DNA of 52,482 nucleotides, taken from the NCBI GenBank assembly GCA_019243195.1, contig JAFAUQ010000101.1, forward strand, positions 1-52,482, in the 5' to 3' direction. The notes under the pieces are model-generated. The model was not told the DNA's origin, searched no databases, and saw only the letters and a program-made list of their open reading frames with translations. The position numbers were made by a program, and so were the translations under genes. The stretch is from Hyphomicrobiales bacterium (GTDB taxonomy: Bacteria > Pseudomonadota > Alphaproteobacteria > Rhizobiales > Xanthobacteraceae). This document shows, piece after piece, positions 15,434-27,641 of this stretch (within the stretch, counting starts at the first letter, position 1; the number at the start of each line of letters is the position of its first letter).

Positions 15434-17154
15434 TGGCTGGTCCGACATTCAGGAATATCAACGTAAGCGGAATCGGGGTGGAAACGGGAATTGGGCCAAA
15501 TCAAGGGCGGTTGCGCTCGATGCTGAGCACGAGGGCGGAGGCTCCCCAACTCGAGTCCACCCGGCGGAGTCTTGCCAGGTTGACCGATGAAGCGGCGAGC
15601 CGGCTCATTTTGCAAACCTACCTCGAGGACGAAGGCGACGGGGCTTTGCGGGAAATAACGACACCGAGTCGTGCCGAATTGGTTCCCGACATGCAGTTGC
15701 GCGGTATAGCTCCCCAGCCAAGCTTAAACGCCCAATCGCTCACATATCAGCAATCGGCCTCCAATATTCCAATTTTCGGAGGCCGCGTAGTTGTCGACAT
15801 CGATGCTCACGACAAAACGCTCGTGTCAATCAACGGCCGTGTTGCACCGATGCCCGATATTTCCTCCGTTGCCAGCGTGAGCCAACTACAGGCGTGGAAA
15901 AATCTGGTTAACTGGTCGGGTGCTAAAAACCCACCGAACGCTCCGGAAACGTCCCCCCTCTTGACCTGGTTTCTTGATGAGGGGCAAGAAAAGTGGCGGC
16001 TCGTGTATCACTTTGCCGCGGTGCCATTTGCCCCGCCGGACGCGGACTCGGATGAGGGTCATGCGTGCGTCCGGCCGTCCTTCCGTTCCAATAGGGCGTA
16101 TGATTACTTCGTGGATGCGCATAACGGTGATGTGGCGTTCTGGTTCCCTTCCGCTCCGGGTTTAGATATCCCCTCTCCAATGACCGGAATGGATTGCTTT
16201 AATGTGCAAAGACAGTTTTATGGGCTGAGCGGACAAGGAGGATTCTCGCTCGTCGATCCGCTCCGCAACATCGAAACATATGACTACACCTATCAAGATA
16301 TCGATCAGAATCCCGCGCCACCCTTCCCAGCTGGACCGATCGTCAATCCAACAAGCAATATGGCCGCAGCCTCGCCGCAGGCTGTTTCTGCGCACTATCA
16401 TGCAGGCCTTGTTTCGGATTTCTACAATAATGAAATGAAGCGCAGTGGCATCGACAATAAGGGAATGAAGCTTGTTTCTGTCGTCAATGTTTATTCCAGT
16501 GATCGCAATCCTCTGCCCTCGCCGCAATGGGGTAATGCGGTGTGGTTTCAAGGTAAGATGTGGTACGGGGAAGAGAACGGTGTAAGCTTCGCAAAATACC
16601 TCGATGTCATCGCCCACGAGCTCACCCACGGCGTGACGGAATCGTCTTCAAACCTCGTCTATCGAAATATTCCGGGCGCGCTAAACGAGTCATACAGCGA
16701 TATTTTCGGAGTGATCATTGCGAACTGGTATCCGAGCCAGCCCAATTCGATCGGCACCTGGAATTGGAAGATCGGCGCGGGCCTAGGCCAAGCTGGCGGC
16801 CCAATTCGAAACTTCGCGGACCCCGCAGCTGCTGGGCAGCCGGACCACATGAATCAATATCGCCCGATTACTCGGGATTACGGGGGCGTTCACATCTACA
16901 GTGGCATCCATAACAAGGCGATCTACAAGCTCCTGACCGCCACCGAACATGGACAGCCGGTGTTTCCGACTCGGGAACTCGCGTTATTGCTGTATCTCAC
17001 TCTCACGCGGTTGACGCAGATGTCCGACTTCAGTGACAGCCGTAGGACCCTCAAGAACGTTGCGGGGGTCTACTATGCGTCTACTACACCGGCCGATCTC
17101 AGTACAAAGCTCGGCGCGATTGACGCTGCCTTCGACTCTGTCGGGATCACATAA
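15433..17154 (+). CDS. thermolysin-family (M4) zinc metallopeptidase
   Basis: The 573-residue protein has the M4 zinc motif HELTH at residues 395-399 (VIAHELTHGVTE) and the third ligand motif NESYSDIFG about 25 residues on, plus a C-terminal domain with YGGVHIYSGIHNKAIY carrying the catalytic His. Residues 90-145 resemble the FTP-type propeptide (SNIPIFGGRVVVDIDAHDKT). No signal peptide is visible at the N-terminus, as in protealysin-like members, so secretion by another route or an intracellular role is possible. Base composition is clearly lower in GC than the neighbours, which suggests acquisition by transfer. The start lies at the end of a duplicated ribosome-binding site. Confidence 0.95.
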   Translation: MAGPTFRNINVSGIGVETGIGPNQGRLRSMLSTRAEAPQLESTRRSLARLTDEAASRLILQTYLEDEGDGALREITTPSRAELVPDMQLRGIAPQPSLNAQSLTYQQSASNIPIFGGRVVVDIDAHDKTLVSINGRVAPMPDISSVASVSQLQAWKNLVNWSGAKNPPNAPETSPLLTWFLDEGQEKWRLVYHFAAVPFAPPDADSDEGHACVRPSFRSNRAYDYFVDAHNGDVAFWFPSAPGLDIPSPMTGMDCFNVQRQFYGLSGQGGFSLVDPLRNIETYDYTYQDIDQNPAPPFPAGPIVNPTSNMAAASPQAVSAHYHAGLVSDFYNNEMKRSGIDNKGMKLVSVVNVYSSDRNPLPSPQWGNAVWFQGKMWYGEENGVSFAKYLDVIAHELTHGVTESSSNLVYRNIPGALNESYSDIFGVIIANWYPSQPNSIGTWNWKIGAGLGQAGGPIRNFADPAAAGQPDHMNQYRPITRDYGGVHIYSGIHNKAIYKLLTATEHGQPVFPTRELALLLYLTLTRLTQMSDFSDSRRTLKNVAGVYYASTTPADLSTKLGAIDAAFDSVGIT

Positions 17155-18261: not shown

Positions 18262-18825
18262 TCACAAATAGCTCTTGATGCGCGCTACCATCGCGGCATC
18301 GTCCCAGGGCGCGGCGCCGATCACGCGCGCAAGTTCGCGGCCCTCGCGGTCGATCAACAGGGTCGTCGGCATGCCGGACGCTTCGAGGGCGTAAGCCGCG
18401 TCGCCCGATCGATCGACGTAAATGCCCAGCGAGCTGAGTCCGAGGTCGTGATAGAAGCGCGCAACCACGTCGCGGCCGCGATGATCGATCGAGAGCGGGA
18501 CGACCGCGAAATCGGGTCTGCCCATCTTGGCCTGCAGGCGATCGAGCATGGGCATTTCCATTCGGCACGGAGCGCACCACGTCGCCCAAATGTTGAGAAG
18601 CACGACCCGGGCGCGAAAATCGGCGAGCGTCATCGCCGCGCCGGCGCCGTCCTCGAAATGCAGAAGCGGCAGCGGCCGCGGCATTGGCTGCGCGAGGAAG
18701 GCAGGCGCCTTGGACTCTGCCGCCGCCGATCTTGGCTGCGACAACGATGCCGGCGCCGCGACGAGCCCAAGCGAAATTGCCGCCGCCGCGGCACCGCGCA
18801 AGCCTGCTGTGAGGACGCTACGCAT
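18262..18825 (-). CDS. exported TlpA/ResA-like thioredoxin
   Basis: The 187-residue product has a signal peptide (MRSVLTAGLRGAAAAAISLG) and a thioredoxin domain with the active site WATWCAPCRMEMPML and the cis-Pro loop ASGMPTTLLID. TlpA-like proteins keep cysteines of periplasmic targets reduced, for example in cytochrome c or cytochrome oxidase copper-centre assembly. A longer start at 18885 adds a non-signal-like segment, so ATG 18825 is preferred. It is divergent from the bufferin cluster and shares its 195-base upstream region, which fits a joint role in periplasmic thiol and copper chemistry. Confidence 0.9.
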   Translation of the reverse strand: MRSVLTAGLRGAAAAAISLGLVAAPASLSQPRSAAAESKAPAFLAQPMPRPLPLLHFEDGAGAAMTLADFRARVVLLNIWATWCAPCRMEMPMLDRLQAKMGRPDFAVVPLSIDHRGRDVVARFYHDLGLSSLGIYVDRSGDAAYALEASGMPTTLLIDREGRELARVIGAAPWDDAAMVARIKSYL

Positions 18826-19020
18826 GAGCAAAGACGGATAGATCGGATCGGTATCCGGCCGCCGCAGGCTCCATTCATCGGACAAAACGAAATCAGCTAG
18901 CCCGCTTCATCGTTCGTGCTATGATCCTAAGGTTGCGGGTTGCGCTGTCAAATCGAACCCGCCGAACCACCCTCCATCAATACCGCCAACTCACGCTATC
19001 CATAGTCGGGAGTTCTGCTG

Positions 19021-19344
19021 ATGAAGAGTGCATCCGGTTCGACTGCCCTCTCGGCGGCCATCGGTCTTGCCATGGCCATGCAAGGCGTCCCGGCCGGGGC
19101 GCAGGGGATGCAGGGAGAGGATCCCCAGGTAAAGCGGCAGATGATGAAGTTCATGCATGACAAGATGAAAAAACAGCATCTTGAGATGTGCTATGGCATC
19201 AATGCGGTCGGGAAAAACGACTGCGGTACCGCCAGCCATTCGTGCCACGGCCAGGCGACACAGGCGCGCGATCCGGCGTCCTTTGTGCTCGTTCCGGCTG
19301 GAGAGTGCAGCAAGATCCCCGGCGGTCTTCTCAAGCCTGGGTAA
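19021..19344 (+). CDS. bufA: bufferin-type RiPP precursor (DUF2282-like)
   Basis: The 107-residue product has a signal peptide (to about Ala27), a Met/Lys/His-rich linker (MKFMHDKMKKQHLEM) and a core with four cysteines: Cys57 (MCYGINAVGKNDC), Cys68, Cys75 (SHSCHGQAT) and Cys96 (VPAGECSKIPGG). The core pattern CYGxxxxGKNDC..SCxGQ is that of DUF2282, whose members are bufferins: exported peptides matured by a DUF692 oxygenase that modifies cysteines to bind copper. The DUF692 gene follows 14 bases later, with the DUF2063 partner after it, which strongly supports the call. The precursor looks intact. Confidence 0.88.
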   Translation: MKSASGSTALSAAIGLAMAMQGVPAGAQGMQGEDPQVKRQMMKFMHDKMKKQHLEMCYGINAVGKNDCGTASHSCHGQATQARDPASFVLVPAGECSKIPGGLLKPG

Positions 19345-19358
19345 GCGCGAGACGACGA

Positions 19359-20249
19359 ATGTCGCTTGCTTTTGCGTCAACCGCTCGCGTCCCGGAAAAA
19401 ATCTCCGCGCGTGCGGGCATTGGGCTTCGCTTTCCTCACCATCAGGCGGTGATCGCGGAGCGGCCGCAGGTCGCGTGGTTCGAGGTCCATGGCGAAAACT
19501 ACATGGGCGGCGGCGCCCCGTTGCGCGAGCTTGAAGCAATCCGGCGCGACTATCCGGTCTCGCTGCATGGCGTCGGTTTGTCGCTCGGCAGCGCCGATGG
19601 GCTCGACGCCGCTCACCTTGAGCGCTTCGCCGCTCTTGCCGCGCGCATCGAGCCCGGCCTCGTCTCCGAGCATCTCACCTGGAGCATCAGCGACGGCGAG
19701 TATCTCGGCGACCTGTTGCCGCTGCCGCTCACCAAGGAGGCGCTCGATGTCGTCTGCGAGAATGTCGATCGGTTTCAGCAGACATTGCAGCGGCAAATCC
19801 TGGTGGAGAATCCCTCCAGTTACCTCGAGTATCGCCACTCGACCATGGTGGAGAGCGAGTTTCTGGTGGCCATTGCCCGGCGCACCGGCTGCGGCATTCT
19901 TTGCGATCTCGGCAATATATTCGTCAGCGCCGCCAACCACGACCGGGATGCGGAGACCTACCTCGCGGCGTTGCCGCCGGGTGTGGTCAAGGAGTTTCAT
20001 CTCGCCGGTCACACGGTGAGGCCGCTCAGCGACGGCACCGCGCTGCGCATCGACGACCACGGCTCGCCCGTCGACCCGGCAGTATGGGCGTTGTTCGGCA
20101 AAGCGGTCGCGCGCTTCGGCGCGGTCCCGACCCTGATCGAACGCGACAGCAACATTCCGCCGCTCGACGCGCTGATCGCGGAGGCCGACTGCGCATCCGC
20201 AATTCTCTTGCAGGCGGAGGAGAGTTCAGCCGATGCCGACGCTGCGTGA
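19359..20249 (+). CDS. bufB: DUF692 multinuclear non-haem iron oxygenase (MNIO)
   Basis: The 296-residue product has the DUF692 TIM-barrel hallmarks: ERPQVAWFEVHGENYMG, SLHGVGLSLGS, LVSEHLTWS, LVENPSSYLEY, GILCDLGNIFVSAANH, EFHLAGH, DDHGSPVDPAVW and LIERDSNIP, which together supply the His/Glu/Asp metal ligands. The enzyme would modify cysteines of the peptide encoded just upstream. The ATG at 19359 gives the usual family length; the upstream extension overlaps the precursor gene and is a shadow. It overlaps the next gene by 17 bases. Confidence 0.93.
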   Translation: MSLAFASTARVPEKISARAGIGLRFPHHQAVIAERPQVAWFEVHGENYMGGGAPLRELEAIRRDYPVSLHGVGLSLGSADGLDAAHLERFAALAARIEPGLVSEHLTWSISDGEYLGDLLPLPLTKEALDVVCENVDRFQQTLQRQILVENPSSYLEYRHSTMVESEFLVAIARRTGCGILCDLGNIFVSAANHDRDAETYLAALPPGVVKEFHLAGHTVRPLSDGTALRIDDHGSPVDPAVWALFGKAVARFGAVPTLIERDSNIPPLDALIAEADCASAILLQAEESSADADAA

Positions 20250-21024
20250 GGTGCAACGCGCCCTCGCGCGCGGCATTTTCTCGGCTGATCCCGAGGAAGC
20301 GCTGGCGCATGTTGCCGGCGACGCAATCGCCGCGGCGGAGCGCTTCGCAGTGCATCGCAACAACGCGGTCACGACGTTGGTTGGCGCTCTATGCCGCGTT
20401 TATCCGGTGGTCGAAAAGCTGGTGGGAGCGGAATTCTTCGCCGCTGCGGCGCGCGCGTTCATCGACCGCCACCCACCGCGAACCGCTTATCTCAACCATT
20501 ATGGCGCCGAATTTGCCGACTTTCTCGGCGCGTTTCCGGCTGCTGCCGAGATTGTTTATCTCAGCGACGTTGCGAGATTCGAATGGGCCGTGCACGGCGT
20601 GCTCAATGCGCCCGATGCGCCCGCGCTCGCGCCGGCGATGCTCGTCGAGCTTTCCGAAAGCGCGCATGGAGAGGTGCGCTTCGTGCCGCATCCGGCGGTC
20701 AGGTTGCTCACCGTAAATTACCCGGCCGATGCCATTTGGCGCGCGGTGCAAGCAGGCGATGATGCCGCGCTCGCCGCACTCGAGCTTGATGGGGCGCCGA
20801 TGTCATTCCTCGTCGAGCGCCGGGGCGACGCCGTTGCGCTGCGCCGGTTGACGGCGGACGAGGCCCAAATGACTGCGCTGTTGTTCTCCGGCGCGGCGCT
20901 CTCGCAAGTCGCGCCCGAGCACGACCGAGTGGCCTTCGTGACGCTGCTCGCCGAGCACTTGGCGCAGGGACGCTTTGCCGGCTTTGCTGCGCCGCCACAA
21001 GGCCGCGGCGACAAAGAAAGCTGA
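20233..21024 (+). CDS. bufC: DUF2063 partner protein of the MNIO
   Basis: The 263-residue product (MPTLREVQRALARGIFSADP) is a DUF2063 protein: AERFAVHRNNAVTTLVGALCRVYPVVEKLVG is the typical N-terminal stretch. These proteins form a complex with DUF692 enzymes and recognise the precursor's leader; older annotations call them DNA-binding. The 17-base overlap with bufB indicates translational coupling. No DoxX-like bufD or ECF sigma gene follows in this window, so the cluster is a minimal three-gene type. Confidence 0.9.
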   Translation: MPTLREVQRALARGIFSADPEEALAHVAGDAIAAAERFAVHRNNAVTTLVGALCRVYPVVEKLVGAEFFAAAARAFIDRHPPRTAYLNHYGAEFADFLGAFPAAAEIVYLSDVARFEWAVHGVLNAPDAPALAPAMLVELSESAHGEVRFVPHPAVRLLTVNYPADAIWRAVQAGDDAALAALELDGAPMSFLVERRGDAVALRRLTADEAQMTALLFSGAALSQVAPEHDRVAFVTLLAEHLAQGRFAGFAAPPQGRGDKES

Positions 21025-21160: not shown

Positions 21161-22748
21161 ATGGCGAGAGAAGCGAGGGACATCAGATTCGATCGCGAAG
21201 CGCGTGAGCGCCTGCTGCGCGGTGCCGGCATCCTGACCAAGGCGGTGCGCGTGACGCTCGGCCCGAAGGGCCGCAACGTCGTGGTCGGCACCCAATTCGG
21301 CCTTGGGGCGCCCCGCATCACCAAGGACGGCGTGACGGTCGCCAAGGAGATCGAGCTGCGCGACAAGTTTGAAAACATGGGCGCGCAGATGTTGCGCGAA
21401 GTCGCAACCAGGACCAGCCAGGAGGCCGGCGACGGCACCACCACGGCAACCGTGCTCGCCCACGCCATGATGCGCGAGGGCTTGAAGGCGGTCGCCGCGG
21501 GCTTCAGTCCCATGGAATTGAAGCGCGGCATGGAGGCCGGCGCCGAGGCGGCGGTTGAAGCGATCAAACGGCGCTCGAAGCGGGTCGCCACCAAGGACGA
21601 GATCGTCCAGGTTGCCACCATTTCCGCCAACGGGGAGCGCGACATTGGCGTGCTGCTCGGGGAAGCCATGCAGAAGACCGGCAGCGACGGCGTCATCACC
21701 TTGCAGCCGGCGCGCGGCATGGAGACCGAGCTCGACTTCGTCGACGGCATGCAGTTCGACCGCGGCTACGTCTCGGCATCCTTCATCACCGATCAGCTCA
21801 GGCTGATTTGCGAGTTGGAAGACCCGTACATGCTCGTCCGCGAGGGAAAGCTCGCCGAGCTGCCGGCGCTGCTGCCGCTCATGGAAGCGGTGCTGAAAAC
21901 CGCAAAGCCGCTCTTGGTTATCGCCGACGATTTCGCCCCCGAGGTGCTGGCGACGCTGGTCCTCAACAACGGCCGTGGCGGCATGCAGGTGGCGGCGGTG
22001 AGATCGCCGCGCTTTGGCGAGCACCGCAAGGCGGCTGCTCGAAGACATTGCCGTTCTCACCGGCGGCCGGCTGTTCTCGGAAGAGGGCGGTTTCCCCCTG
22101 ACAAGCGCCAATTTGAACCTGCTCGGCCGGGCCAAGAGCGTGCGCGTGGAGAAGGAAAACACGATCATCATCGACGGCGCCGGCAAGAAGGCCGAGATCG
22201 CCGCGCGCACCGATCTGCTTCGGGCACAAATCGCCCGCGCGGACACCGATTACGATCGGCAGCGGTTGCGGGAACGGCTGGCGAAGCTGACGAGCGGCGT
22301 CGCCGTCATTCGCGTCGGCGGGGCGACCGAGCTTGAGCTGCGCGAACGCAGGGATCGGGTGCAAGATGCTCTCTGCGCCACGCGCGCCGCCATGGAAGAA
22401 GGCATCGTGCCGGGCGGCGGCGCGGCGCTCCTTCATGCCGCCAAGGCCTTGGCCAAGCTCAACCCCGAGAACGACGACCAGAGAGTCGGCATCGACATCG
22501 TCCGCCGCGCTCTCAAGGAGCCGGCATGGCAGATCGCCGACAATTCCGGGGCCGAGGCTGCAGTCGTGGTCAACAAGCTTGCGGAAAGCGGCGACGAGAA
22601 CCAAGGCTTCGATGCGCGCGCCGGCGTCTACACCGATATGTTTGAAGCCGGCATTCTCGACCCGACCCGGGTGGTGCGGCTCGCTTTGCAGCACGCTGCG
22701 TCGGTGGCAGGGCTGCTGCTCACGACCGAAGCGATGATCGCGGCTTGA
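21161..22748 (+). pseudogene. groEL: GroEL (Hsp60) paralog interrupted by a frameshift
   Basis: From ATG 21161 the sequence follows GroEL closely ([14 protein letters not shown]-type loop, [27 protein letters not shown]) up to FGEHRKA near 22030. The rest ([17 protein letters not shown] to [12 protein letters not shown]) continues in another frame to 22748, so one base was gained or lost around 22025-22040. Joined, it would be about 528 residues. It lacks the usual GGM-rich tail, and no groES lies upstream, so it is a divergent extra copy, not the housekeeping chaperonin. Whether the frameshift is real or an assembly error cannot be told. Its place between bufferin and multicopper oxidase genes is notable. 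Confidence 0.85.
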
Positions 22749-23043
22749 CGCGCCTCTAAGATGCCAAATTGCCAAACGGCAGTAGAACGCGAGGATGAGC
22801 CCAATTCACAGTATGGTTGACTTCATGGTTGACTTCTCGGCGGAAGGGCGCATACTGACAAAAATGTTATTACTACCTTGAGCGGTACCCCGCTCCGTAG
22901 ACGACGCCTCCAAGTGTGAGAAGTTGCCATAGGGGGCGCTGCGCGCCGCTAATGGCCACAACCTATGCTGGCCGGAACCACCCGTAAACCGGGCGGTGGA
23001 TCGATCATCGGGCCGAACCGGCCCATCGGGGAGGATCGCCACC

Positions 23044-25518
23044 ATGTCACGCAAAACCGAAAGCCTGTGGATTCGCGAAGATGCGGACAACGGAAAGCGC
23101 CGTGAGGCCGAGGTTGCCCGCAAAAATCGTGTCGAGATTCAAAAGGCGCTCTCGCACGGCGAAGTCTCGCGCCGCGATCTCGTCAAGTGGGGCTTGTTCA
23201 CCAGCGCCGGCCTGATCGCGCCTATCGGGGGCTTGAGCCCATTCGTGCGCAGCGCCCACGCCTTTGGCGGCGGCGGCGGCACCCGCGGCAGTGGCGTGCC
23301 GACCGGATTGCCGGCCAGTCCGACCTTCGGCCAACCGGCGTTCTCCGCGCCGCTCTACCGTTTCGACATTCTGCCGCAGTACACCTATCCGGGCACGTTC
23401 GCGGCCAGTTCGACGGTGCCGTCGATCCCGGTCAATCCCACCGCGCCCACCCCGGCGCCCACGGCGCAGGCGAACCAGACGCAGCAGCCGGTCGATCCCT
23501 TCCTGGTCAACGGCCAGACCGGTCTCACGGGACCCATCGAAGGACGTCCGCCCGGCGCTATCTGGGGGCACCAGCAGTTCGGGACCTTCCCGCCCCAGGT
23601 CGCGATCGAGGTCACGACCAAAGACTCGACCGCCAACGCCGCTTACAATCCGGGCGTCGCGTCCAATTTCAATAACAACATCGTGGCGGCGCAATCGATT
23701 CCGTTCGCCTTCAATCCGCATTTCCCGACGCAGACCAACAACTCGGCGTGGACCTTCAACGGGACGGTTCCGCCCAAGCTGATCGTCGCGCGCTATGGCG
23801 TGCCGATCATCTTCCGCCACCACAACGGCCTGCCGGCCGACGTCACGAAAAACGGCGTCAACGCGTTCGGGCGGCATACGCTCAGCACCCATGAGCACAA
23901 CGGCCATCACGGCGCGGAGAACGACGGCTTCACCGGCGCCTACTTCTTCCCCAACCAGTTCTACGACTATCACTATCCCTGGACCTTGGCGGGATGGACC
24001 ACCATGAACACCGGCGCCACCGATTCGCGCGCCGGCGCTCCCGACGGCAACGGCCACATCCACAATGTTCCCGGCGATTACCGGGAGACCATGAGCTCGC
24101 ACTGGTTCCACGACCACATGTTCACGTTCACGGACCAGAACGTGTACAAGGGCATCGCCGGAATGACGAACATCTACAGTTCGCAGGATCGCGGCAATGA
24201 GGCGATCAACGACGGCGTCAATCTGCGACTGCCCAGCGGCACGCTGCAGGACTACGCCAACCTGCAATACGACATCAATCTGATGCTGGCCGACAAGGCG
24301 TGGGACGCAAACGGCCAGCTCAACATGGACACCACCCAGTTCGACGGCTTCCTCGGCGACCAGATGACGGTCAATTTCTGCTGGAAGCCGTTCCTGCAGG
24401 TCTATGCGCGCAAGTACCGCTTCCGCATCCTCAACGCCTCGGTGTCGCGCTTCTTCGTCCTCGCGCTGAGCGACAGCTCGCAGATGGTGTATATCGCCAA
24501 CGATGGCAACTTGCTGCCGCAGAGCGTGACGACCACCCAGCTCGACCAGCTCGGCATCGCCGAGCGCTACGACATCATCATCGATTTCTCGCGCTACACC
24601 CAGGGCACGAGGCTCTACCTGGTGAATTTGCAGGAGCAGACGGACGGCAAAAATCCCGGGCAGATTCTTTCGGTCTCGTCGGCCATGCAGGGCGATGCCA
24701 ACGATCCGGCAGTCGGTCCGTTCCTGCAGTTCCAGGTGATCGGCGCGCCGCCGCAGCAGGATCAGAGCGTCATTCCGACGACCCTGATTCCCAATCCGAC
24801 CCTGCCGACCGCTAACACGACGCGCACTTTCATCTTCGACCGCCACGGCCAGATCACCACCAACGATCCGGTCACGACCTACACGGGCAACGGCCAAGGC
24901 ACGGGCGACTGGGGCATCGCCACCATCAACGGCGGCACCAACACCAGCCGCCAGGGCACCGACACCAACAACACCCGGTCCTTCAGCACGAACTTCAGCG
25001 GCAACGGCAACAGCGACGAGGGCGTGGGACTGCTGGCGGATTTCGGCCGCATCAGCGCGGCGCCCACCTACAACACGACGGAAGTGTGGACCTTGGTCAA
25101 CGAAGGCCGCGGCTGGGACCACCCGATCCATATCCATTTCGAGGAGGGCCAGATCCTCGCGCGCAACGGCAGCGCCAATAACGTTCCGGCCTGGGAGAAG
25201 GGCCGCAAGGACGTCTATCGGCTCCGCCCGGGCGGCAGCGTGACGGTCGCGATGCAGTTCCGCGATTGGGGCGGCATGTTCATGGAGCACTGCCACAACA
25301 CCATGCATGAAGATAACGCCATGCTGCTGCGTTGGGAGATCAACAACGCGGGCGGTGTCTTCCTCAACCCGTTGCCCACTCCCATCCCGGCGCCGACCGG
25401 GACGCTCTTCTCGAAGCCGGATGAAATCATCGCCGGAGCCTTCCCGCCCTACAACAGCACGACCAACGGCATCGGCGGCGGCGGCGCCAGCGGCGGCAGC
25501 CGGTGGAGTGGCCACTGA
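23044..25518 (+). CDS. Tat-exported multicopper oxidase
   Basis: The 824-residue protein has a Tat signal (SRRDLVKWG then a hydrophobic stretch ending SAHAFG, about residues 38-76) and all four copper-binding motifs in order: THEHNGHH, SHWFHDHM, HPIHIHFEEGQ and the type-1 site EHCHNTMHEDNAML. It is longer than CueO-type laccases, with a Pro/Thr-rich N-terminal insert (about 105-150) and a Gly/Ser tail. It resembles large bacterial oxidases discussed as Mn(II) or metal oxidases, but the substrate cannot be assigned. It is followed after 44 bases by a SCO-cytochrome fusion, likely in the same operon. The 295 bases upstream contain a tandem ATGGTTGACTTC but no clear promoter. Confidence 0.93.
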   Translation: MSRKTESLWIREDADNGKRREAEVARKNRVEIQKALSHGEVSRRDLVKWGLFTSAGLIAPIGGLSPFVRSAHAFGGGGGTRGSGVPTGLPASPTFGQPAFSAPLYRFDILPQYTYPGTFAASSTVPSIPVNPTAPTPAPTAQANQTQQPVDPFLVNGQTGLTGPIEGRPPGAIWGHQQFGTFPPQVAIEVTTKDSTANAAYNPGVASNFNNNIVAAQSIPFAFNPHFPTQTNNSAWTFNGTVPPKLIVARYGVPIIFRHHNGLPADVTKNGVNAFGRHTLSTHEHNGHHGAENDGFTGAYFFPNQFYDYHYPWTLAGWTTMNTGATDSRAGAPDGNGHIHNVPGDYRETMSSHWFHDHMFTFTDQNVYKGIAGMTNIYSSQDRGNEAINDGVNLRLPSGTLQDYANLQYDINLMLADKAWDANGQLNMDTTQFDGFLGDQMTVNFCWKPFLQVYARKYRFRILNASVSRFFVLALSDSSQMVYIANDGNLLPQSVTTTQLDQLGIAERYDIIIDFSRYTQGTRLYLVNLQEQTDGKNPGQILSVSSAMQGDANDPAVGPFLQFQVIGAPPQQDQSVIPTTLIPNPTLPTANTTRTFIFDRHGQITTNDPVTTYTGNGQGTGDWGIATINGGTNTSRQGTDTNNTRSFSTNFSGNGNSDEGVGLLADFGRISAAPTYNTTEVWTLVNEGRGWDHPIHIHFEEGQILARNGSANNVPAWEKGRKDVYRLRPGGSVTVAMQFRDWGGMFMEHCHNTMHEDNAMLLRWEINNAGGVFLNPLPTPIPAPTGTLFSKPDEIIAGAFPPYNSTTNGIGGGGASGGSRWSGH

Positions 25519-25561
25519 CGGACGCGTTTGCTGGGTATTGCCGGCGAGCGAAGCCAGCAAC

Positions 25562-26491
25562 ATGGCGAATGGCGTATCCAGATGCTTGGCGGTGATCGCG
25601 GCGGCAGTCTTGTCGCTCGCCGCGGTCATCGTTGGCGTCACCGTGGCGGCGGCCGGGCGGCTGGGCGAAAACGCCAATGTCCCGCTGGTAACTCAGGACG
25701 GCGAACAGGTTCGCTTCTACGACGACCTGATCAAAGGCAAGATCGTCGCCGTCAATTTCATCTACACCAGCTGTCTGTTCACCTGCCCGCTGGAGACCGC
25801 GCGGCTCGCCCAGGTGCAGAGAATTCTGGGCGACCGCGTCGGCAAGGATATCTTCTTCTACTCGATCAGCATCGACCCAGAGCATGACACGCCGGCCGTG
25901 CTGAAGGAGTACATGCAGGAGTTCGAGGTCGGACCGGGATGGACGTTCCTGACCGGAGACCGGGACGACATCGATCTGCTCGCCTTCCGGCTCGGCATGA
26001 CCGATGACCCCAGCATCACCTCCGGTCCCGGCCCCAATCTCGACGGCCACACGCCGCACCTTCTGATCGCCAACGAAAAGACCGGCCAGTGGCTGCGCAA
26101 CTCGTCGACCGATAATCCCGGCATGCTCGCCCATTTCCTCACCGATTTCGTCGGCGGCCAAACGGCCGTGCGGCCGGCCGTCAGCAGCAACGCCGGTGCG
26201 CCGCTCAAGCTCAACGCCGGGCAGTATCTGTTCGCCAAGGAATGCGCGGCGTGCCACACGCTCGGGCAGGGCGACAAGGTTGGGCCGGATCTCAAAGGGG
26301 TGGTCGCCCGGCGCGATCGCGATTGGCTGGCGCATTACATCCGCGAGCCGAATGTCATGCGCGCGGCCGGCGATCCGGTCGCCGTGACGCTCGCCGCCCG
26401 ATATAAAACCGTGATGCCCAATCTCAACGTCGGCGACCGGGACCTTAACTTCCTGCTGGATTATTTGGACGCGCAATCCTCTTCGCGATAG
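25562..26491 (+). CDS. SCO1/SenC copper chaperone fused to a c-type cytochrome domain
   Basis: The 309-residue protein has a signal anchor (residues 5-32), a SCO domain with the copper site CX3C in YTSCLFTCPLE and the distal His in DGHTPHLLIA, and a C-terminal class I cytochrome c domain with CAACH and a probable axial Met in VMPNLNV. SCO proteins deliver copper or act as thiol reductases; fused to cytochrome c they could couple copper delivery to electron transfer. Together with the multicopper oxidase upstream it probably helps load or feed that enzyme. Confidence 0.92.
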   Translation: MANGVSRCLAVIAAAVLSLAAVIVGVTVAAAGRLGENANVPLVTQDGEQVRFYDDLIKGKIVAVNFIYTSCLFTCPLETARLAQVQRILGDRVGKDIFFYSISIDPEHDTPAVLKEYMQEFEVGPGWTFLTGDRDDIDLLAFRLGMTDDPSITSGPGPNLDGHTPHLLIANEKTGQWLRNSSTDNPGMLAHFLTDFVGGQTAVRPAVSSNAGAPLKLNAGQYLFAKECAACHTLGQGDKVGPDLKGVVARRDRDWLAHYIREPNVMRAAGDPVAVTLAARYKTVMPNLNVGDRDLNFLLDYLDAQSSSR

Positions 26492-26629
26492 CGCATGATC
26501 CCGAAAAAGCCTGCCCCGCACTTGATGCGGGGTGGCTACCGGTTTCCCGCCTGCGCGAAGCCCGTGGCACGCGGCATCATTTGGCTTGATGCTTCGGCGG
26601 GCGAAGGCAGGTCGGAAAAGATCATGCGC
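26491..26629. repeat. rhizobial GCATGATC..GATCATGC element, enlarged
   Basis: GCGCATGATCCCGAAAAAGC opens and GTCGGAAAAGATCATGCGC closes the element, the ends of a repeat that I recall as widespread in Rhizobiales, usually about 50-60 bases. Here the two ends are 139 bases apart, with additional sequence containing CCCCGCACTTGATGCGGGG. A more diverged copy lies near 40100-40175. Confidence 0.6.
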
Positions 26630-26641
26630 CAGCGAGAAGCT

Positions 26642-26681
26642 AAAGCGCGATGACGATTCGAAGAAGAGTCATCGCGCTTTT
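26642..26681. terminator. perfect 13-base-pair hairpin with short T-run
   Basis: AAAGCGCGATGAC (26642-26654) pairs with GTCATCGCGCTTT (26668-26680) around a 13-base loop, followed by a T. It lies between the SCO-cytochrome gene and the fic gene and may terminate the former; the T-run is short, so this is only a candidate. Confidence 0.5.
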
Positions 26682-26717
26682 GGCGAGCGGGCGCCGGCGG
26701 TCGGGAGCGCTGTAAAA

Positions 26718-27641
26718 GTGCGTGTCGAGGACTGGGCCAGCTTCGATTTCAGCTATTCGCTCGATCTACGCAGCCTCGTGCCGCATATCCTCGCCCTCGA
26801 GCAATACAAAGCGGCGGCCTTGAGTCCGGTGCTGCCGCCGCACTGGCTGGAAGTTTCCCAGCCTCCGACCGGCGACGAGAGCGGCGCCGCCGATCCGCCG
26901 GTATGGGGAGCGCTACGATCCGCACCATCGGGAATTTCCGCTGCCGAACAGTCCGCGGACGATCAAGCCGCCGCCGGGGCGCGGCCGGTCCCGGTGCGCG
27001 ACAGCAGCAAGGCGCGCGCCTGGATCAAACACCGCTTCGTGCCGGGCAGCGCGCCGGTCGCGCTCGCCGATATCTTGGAACTGCACCGGATGGTTGCCGA
27101 AGAACAGGGCGTCGGCGGACCGACCGCGGGCGCGCCGCGGACCACCAACGTGGAAGTGGGCCGAGAGCTGGTGGGTGGGGTCCACCAGGGAGCGCCGGCG
27201 AGGCGCCTGCCGCAGCTGATGGTCGAATATGTGTCGTTCATCGACCGGGAGGACTTGCGCAGCTTGCCCCCGGTGATCCACGCACTGATCGCCCACTTCT
27301 TTCTCGATACCATTCATCCATTCGTGGACGGCAATGGCAGGACGTCGCGCTTGCTGGCGGCCGCGATCCTGTCCCGGCACGGCTATAACGTGCACGGCAC
27401 TTACGGGCTGATCAGGTGCTTTTACCGCCATGAGCTGCGCTATCACACCATGCTGCACCGGATTTGGCAGTGCTGCCCCTTCGCGGTGACGTCGTTTGTG
27501 GCGTTCGGCATCGAGGGCTTCGTTCTGGAATTGAAGAGCGTGGATACCTTCATAAAAATGAAATTGAATCGGCTGCGCGCCCCGGAGCTTCGGACGCCCG
27601 GTTTGCGGCGAAGAATTCGAGCGGGTCCGCGCGGCCTGTGA
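26718..27641 (+). CDS. Fic family protein (putative AMP transferase)
   Basis: The 307-residue product carries the Fic catalytic loop HPFVDGNGRTSR with His200, so transfer of AMP or another phosphate-containing group to a target protein is likely. The N-terminal region (about residues 1-110) is proline/alanine-rich and shows no S/TxxxE(G/N) inhibitory motif, so how it is restrained is unclear. The GTG at 26718 is chosen because the upstream frame runs into the repeat and hairpin; VEDWASFDFSYSLDL is where coding character begins. The C-terminal tail is basic. It ends five bases before the next gene, suggesting an operon. Confidence 0.85.
   Translation: MRVEDWASFDFSYSLDLRSLVPHILALEQYKAAALSPVLPPHWLEVSQPPTGDESGAADPPVWGALRSAPSGISAAEQSADDQAAAGARPVPVRDSSKARAWIKHRFVPGSAPVALADILELHRMVAEEQGVGGPTAGAPRTTNVEVGRELVGGVHQGAPARRLPQLMVEYVSFIDREDLRSLPPVIHALIAHFFLDTIHPFVDGNGRTSRLLAAAILSRHGYNVHGTYGLIRCFYRHELRYHTMLHRIWQCCPFAVTSFVAFGIEGFVLELKSVDTFIKMKLNRLRAPELRTPGLRRRIRAGPRGL

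Follow-up and report, generated by a model that had tools for sequence, protein, structure and literature searches.

A putative Buf1-type bufferin locus in a Xanthobacteraceae clade with a linked tlpA-like gene and without bufD and sigma factor genes

Introduction

Bufferins are among the largest families of RiPPs modified by MNIO enzymes. Members of the Buf1 type have been defined by a DUF2282 precursor with a signal peptide and four Cys, of which the central ones are modified and the outer two form a disulphide, and by the gene order bufABC. In the window analysed here (the whole stretch of 52,482 nucleotides, contig C79 of a 66%-complete assembly), three closely spaced genes raise the question of whether they constitute such a cluster, what the Met/His/Lys-rich segment of the precursor is for, and whether the lack of bufD and of a sigma factor gene is peculiar to this DNA. 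An earlier note made from the sequence had described the genes as a minimal bufferin RiPP cluster and had suggested that the segment might add copper ligands.

Results and discussion

Gene content and family assignment

The three genes are intact, lie on the same strand and follow the order bufABC, with 14 bp between the stop codon of bufA and the ATG of bufB, and an overlap of 17 nt between bufB and bufC:

19021..19344, + strand: bufA, Buf1/DUF2282 precursor of 107 aa with C57, C68, C75 and C96 (Pfam DUF2282 and Cys pattern)
19359..20249, + strand: bufB, MNIO maturase of 296 aa, ATG at 19359 (Pfam and NCBIfam MNIO_BufB)
20233..21024, + strand: bufC, partner protein of 263 aa with DUF2063 and RRE-type parts, PME type 1 (Pfam DUF2063 and AlphaFold2 fold match)

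Pfam searches gave E-values of 2.7e-19 for DUF2282 in BufA (69.4 bits against a cut-off of 22.4), 1.9e-99 for MbnB_TglH_ChrH in BufB and 3.2e-25 for DUF2063 in BufC, and BufB scored 362 bits with the NCBIfam model MNIO_BufB, above the cut-off of 310. From the combination of a four-Cys DUF2282 precursor, a BufB-type MNIO, a DUF2063 and RRE-type partner and the order bufABC, the locus is assigned on sequence grounds to Buf1, a described RiPP family, and the compact cluster proposed earlier was thus confirmed. It contains the single MNIO gene and the single DUF2282 gene of the 66%-complete source assembly. No Rfam family was found between positions 17000 and 26600.

Precursor core and modifying proteins

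Three regions were delineated in BufA:

19021..19107, + strand: signal-peptide region, residues about 1-29, read from the sequence by eye
19123..19176, + strand: pre-core helix, residues 35-52, helical in the AlphaFold2 model (pLDDT of the block 74-94), with the subfamily motif
19189..19308, + strand: core from C57 to C96, with C68 and C75 as presumed thiooxazole sites and C57-C96 as presumed disulphide, by homology with Buf1

The by-eye reading of the N-terminus revealed a basic start, a hydrophobic stretch and an AGAQG boundary; residues 1-29 are of low confidence in the AlphaFold2 model. All four Cys are invariant among 36 aligned BufA proteins, and C68 and C75 had been named correctly as the central pair. 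By homology with the Buf1 relatives, the formation of thiooxazoles on these two Cys, Sec export and periplasmic copper binding are presumed for BufA as well. The residue directly following the third Cys is His76. Among 175 distinct cores, His occurs at this place in five, namely in the window and in four metagenome-assembled genomes (MAGs) of the Xanthobacteraceae genus g3, while Ala is found in 159. Judged from the alignment, His76 may be a better clade-specific candidate ligand than the His of the linker.

Searching the PDB with the BufA sequence returned chance matches only, and a fold search with the BufA model gave no match. A scan of the genome contigs with BufA alone retrieved no relative, but loci were recovered with the BufB alignment as query.

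The near-invariant positions of 112 aligned BufB proteins are all kept in the window, including H70, H105, E150, N151, D183, N186, H214, D232, H234, E261 and D263. Two positions deviate. Gly185, which replaces an Asn present in 103 of the 112 proteins, is unique to the window in this sample, and Arg262 replaces a Trp equally present in 103 of 112, Arg being also found in the solved MNIO structure 3BWW. The idea that Gly185 would inactivate BufB was set aside, as the same column holds His in TglH and Ser in MbnB in alignments to solved structures. The AlphaFold2 model of BufC (pLDDT 90.8) matched the fold of TglI (8hci, 8hi7) and of NGO1945 (3dee) with E-values of 5e-6 to 1.5e-5. Among the partner proteins of MNIO enzymes, type 1 has NGO1945 as its reference structure. 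A PDB sequence search with BufC gave no match, so that the link to TglI and NGO1945 comes from the fold search.

The Met/His/Lys-rich linker

Residues 41-56 of BufA (MMKFMHDKMKKQHLEM) are indeed rich in Met, His and Lys, as had been noticed. Within the 22 residues preceding the first Cys, five Met and two His were counted in the window, the highest sum of Met and His among 121 sampled BufA (median 1). The segment as such is nevertheless not an oddity of this locus, in that extended Met/Lys-rich linkers were found in 20 of the 121 proteins, most of the 70 BufA loci located via BufB have one too, and the distance from the start to the first Cys is at least 50 in 17% of the same sample. The pattern PQxVKDNM[AM]R[MA]xxx[KH]LEK stands just before the first Cys in most BufA genes adjoining 75 BufB loci, which belong to Xanthobacteraceae, Variovorax, Paraburkholderia, Rhodopila and unclassified Beta- and Gammaproteobacteria. 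The predicted linker helix is largely a trait of a widespread BufA1 subfamily present in Alpha-, Beta- and Gammaproteobacteria. At one locus (L209) the precursor gene occurs in tandem, and the extended linkers of the two BufA are nearly identical.

The most serious alternative for the segment is that it forms a second copper site, in which Met and His of the helix would supply Cu(I) ligands beyond those of the thiooxazole core. Besides the exceptional Met and His content of the window, this is favoured by M41, M49, H53 and M56, which are retained by all g3 orthologues, and by the distribution of long Met/Lys linkers over two separate groups of the BufB tree, suggesting that such linkers may have arisen twice. 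On the other hand, M45 and H46 are private to the window and absent from its closest orthologues. In the wider subfamily, the position four residues before the first Cys is split between His and Lys (19:20), and Met at -8 alternates with Ala. The most conserved linker columns are charged, Asn, Met and Leu positions and include K-14, D-13, N-12, R-9, L-3, E-2 and K-1 (numbered back from the first Cys), the charged positions being as conserved as the Met ones, and identity to the g3 proteins is 51% in the linker compared to 76% in the core. The proposal of copper ligands in the linker is weakened by these data, and a second copper site is considered unlikely.

Since its His positions are variable and its charged positions conserved, the linker resembles a docking or spacer helix rather than a copper site, and the alignment pattern thus favours a role in recognition or spacing over copper ligands. 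According to preliminary published data, the sequence recognised by BufBC includes the signal peptide, which makes an N-terminal recognition element plausible. The helix was also examined for amphipathicity. Its hydrophobic moment was above the shuffle mean at a non-significant level (p 0.13-0.18), and this claim was dropped.

Absence of bufD, regulators and the sigmaF-type promoter

In the BufB tree, the window groups with the four g3 MAGs (support 100/95). In agreement with the earlier note, neither a DoxX gene (bufD) nor a sigma factor gene was found near the buf locus of the window, and the same holds for the four g3 MAGs; NrsF genes were likewise not found near these loci. No NrsF gene was detected anywhere in the five assemblies (65-90% complete), while it is present in the two sister genomes tested. 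The sister-clade sigma factor has no close homologue in the 66%-complete assembly of the window, where the best candidate shows 33% identity. Published descriptions of bufferin clusters count DoxX as a core gene; it is lacking in 12 of 89 sampled buf loci, which indicates that DoxX is common in the family without being essential to it.

The promoter sequence GTAACC-N16-CGAA, known from the sigmaF regulon of Caulobacter, was present upstream of bufA as an exact match in five of six sister loci, the sixth being one mismatch off. In contrast, the best match in the window and in the g3 loci still contained two to four mismatches, and shuffled controls were almost never exact. The absence of bufD and sigma factor is thus a trait of the clade, accompanied by the loss of the promoter, and not an isolated lack. 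The two types of buf locus do not track genus: the one genome of the same genus (G001) harbours a buf cluster of another, canonical kind that includes DoxX.

A divergent tlpA-like gene

A gene that the earlier note had missed is located upstream of bufA in divergent orientation:

18262..18825, - strand: tlpA-like thiol:disulfide interchange gene with a CAPC motif (Redoxin/AhpC-TSA Pfam), start set at the ATG that agrees with the orthologue alignment
18826..19020, no strand: intergenic region between tlpA and bufA, with no sigmaF-type promoter and with a TTGACA-16-TAGGAT box on the - strand towards tlpA

With the NCBIfam TlpA equivalog model the product scored 145.5 bits against a cut-off of 230, hence it is called TlpA-like and not a TlpA orthologue. 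In the window and all four g3 MAGs alike, this gene, whose product has the CxPC motif, points away from bufA (identity 55-64%), and when the spacers of the window and g3 are aligned, the TTGACA box facing it is visible. Unlike tlpA, the other buf neighbours tested were not conserved across the five loci. The window and the four g3 MAGs are without bufD, sigma, NrsF and GTAACC-N16-CGAA, which the sister clade usually has, and share a tlpA-like neighbour and His76.

Apart from these orthologues, the closest homologues of the window protein in the family come from loci of which two are annotated. Both are copper-handling clusters that contain genes for SCO1, a multicopper oxidase and a DsbD-type protein, and CtaG/Cox11 is encoded in one of the two. 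These nearest relatives belong to other Xanthobacteraceae (L234 and L237), where TlpA-SCO1-multicopper oxidase-DsbD groups were observed, L237 having CtaG and DUF411 in addition. In Bradyrhizobium, TlpA reduces the copper chaperone ScoI and CoxB. Judged from its linkage, the divergent tlpA is probably a response to the copper or thiol stress that bufABC answers.

A thioredoxin-like gene within 5 kb was found in 23 of the 89 sampled buf loci, a sample biased towards the extended-linker subfamily. At eleven loci of this subfamily (L138, L141, L142, L160, L165, L172, L181, L183, L205, L206 and L209) such a gene lies a few kb from buf, usually accompanied by a membrane gene of the CcdA/DsbD type, so that the link to thiol redox recurs. 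Two published surveys have no form of the word 'thioredoxin' in their main text.

Downstream genes and the question of the metal

Directly 3' of bufC, a groEL-like gene (21161-22748) is split over two frames. Its ORFs (21161-22336 and 22014-22748) cover positions 1-205 and 281-488 of the Cpn60 profile, and the frameshift is either an assembly error of the MAG or the sign of a broken gene. It is followed by a multicopper oxidase gene (22996-25518, 840 aa, Tat-like N-terminus) and by an ORF encoding a fusion of SCO1-SenC and cytochrome c (25307-26491), a pair situated 2-5 kb downstream of bufABC. Right after the latter, a gene for a Fic/DOC-domain protein was observed (26532-27641). The multicopper oxidase and SCO1 genes of the window were not found beside buf in the g3 loci, where the multicopper oxidase was the one checked, so that the adjacency of the pair to bufABC in the window may be due to chance.

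It could be argued that the product mainly answers another metal or oxidative stress, such as chromate, cadmium or gold, and not copper. The DUF2282-DUF692-DUF2063 operons of Caulobacter are known to be induced by dichromate via sigmaF, buf operons have also been named gold-induced genes, and the usual regulator is missing in the window. However, the relatives of tlpA and the multicopper oxidase and SCO1 genes are linked to copper, and the Buf1 product characterised so far binds copper. A main function outside copper is thus regarded as quite improbable.

That the cluster is decaying and, having lost sigma, NrsF, DoxX and its sigmaF-type promoter, is no longer expressed or functional, is very hard to reconcile with three ORFs that the window and four related MAGs keep intact, the core 76% identical to g3, the intact active-site positions of BufB and the new conserved neighbour of the clade.

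Proposed mechanism

Taken together, it is highly likely that the locus is a Buf1 bufferin locus whose product is modified by BufBC, exported and copper-chelating, with a helix for recognition or spacing, with lost regulators and with a linked TlpA. BufA would be synthesised with a Sec signal peptide and bound in the cytoplasm by BufC, through its DUF2063 and RRE-type parts, and by the iron-dependent MNIO BufB, which would oxidise C68 and C75 to thiooxazoles. The pre-core helix most probably allows BufBC to recognise or position BufA, or spaces the core from the signal peptide. After export of the peptide the C57-C96 disulphide would form, and the mature bufferin would chelate excess copper in the periplasm; this scheme follows the Buf1 literature, in which the central Cys are modified, the outer Cys form a disulphide and both Cu(I) and Cu(II) are chelated. 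TlpA could, for example, act on BufA or on copper chaperones by reducing their mispaired Cys.

A bolder version, for which the likelihood is low, is that of a bufferin variant freed from sigmaF control and working together with a periplasmic thiol reductase of the copper type, where TlpA would keep the peptide or its copper partners reduced and the His beside Cys75 would alter the copper site.

Overall, the locus is a real, ordinary to moderately interesting member of a described family showing a coherent clade-specific rewiring. With its conserved pre-core helix, the loss of the standard regulators and the linked thiol-disulfide gene, the clade offers a natural test for the recognition of signal-peptide precursors and for the redox upkeep of bufferins.

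Comparison with known systems

The Buf2 systems likewise combine a Cys-rich precursor (BufA2) bearing a signal peptide, putative in the window, with an MNIO and a DUF2063 partner. Their precursors contain six or twelve Cys, whereas BufA of the window has four, and with the BufA2 model it scored 24.1 bits against a cut-off of 60. Captophorins (fontiphorin, oxazolin/HvfA) resemble the window by the pair of MNIO and PME1 and, by analogy, by copper-linked 5-thiooxazole peptides. Their precursors display EGKCG repeats, which are absent from BufA of the window, and the window proteins remained below the cut-offs of both the HvfB (216 bits against 360) and the HvfC model (46 bits against 142).

Closer relatives are the Xanthobacteraceae sister clade and Paraburkholderia, Variovorax and others (L137-L142, L160-L183), which have in common with the window the helical linker, an HSCxG core and a BufB of about 60-66% identity. 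Their linker reads PQxVKDNMxRM, and their core HSCAGQ differs from HSCHG in the window. Most of them possess sigma/NrsF and DoxX, often with a downstream pair of thioredoxin-like and CcdA genes, in contrast to the window, which has no sigma, NrsF or DoxX gene.

The founding member of Buf1, CC3254-CC3257 with sigF in Caulobacter vibrioides, also features a four-Cys DUF2282 precursor with a signal peptide (putative in the window), an MNIO BufB and a DUF2063 BufC in the order A-B-C. Compared to it, the window is devoid of DoxX (bufD), sigmaF/NrsF and the GTAACC-N16-CGAA promoter, and adds the divergent tlpA, the extended pre-core helix and the His after the third Cys.
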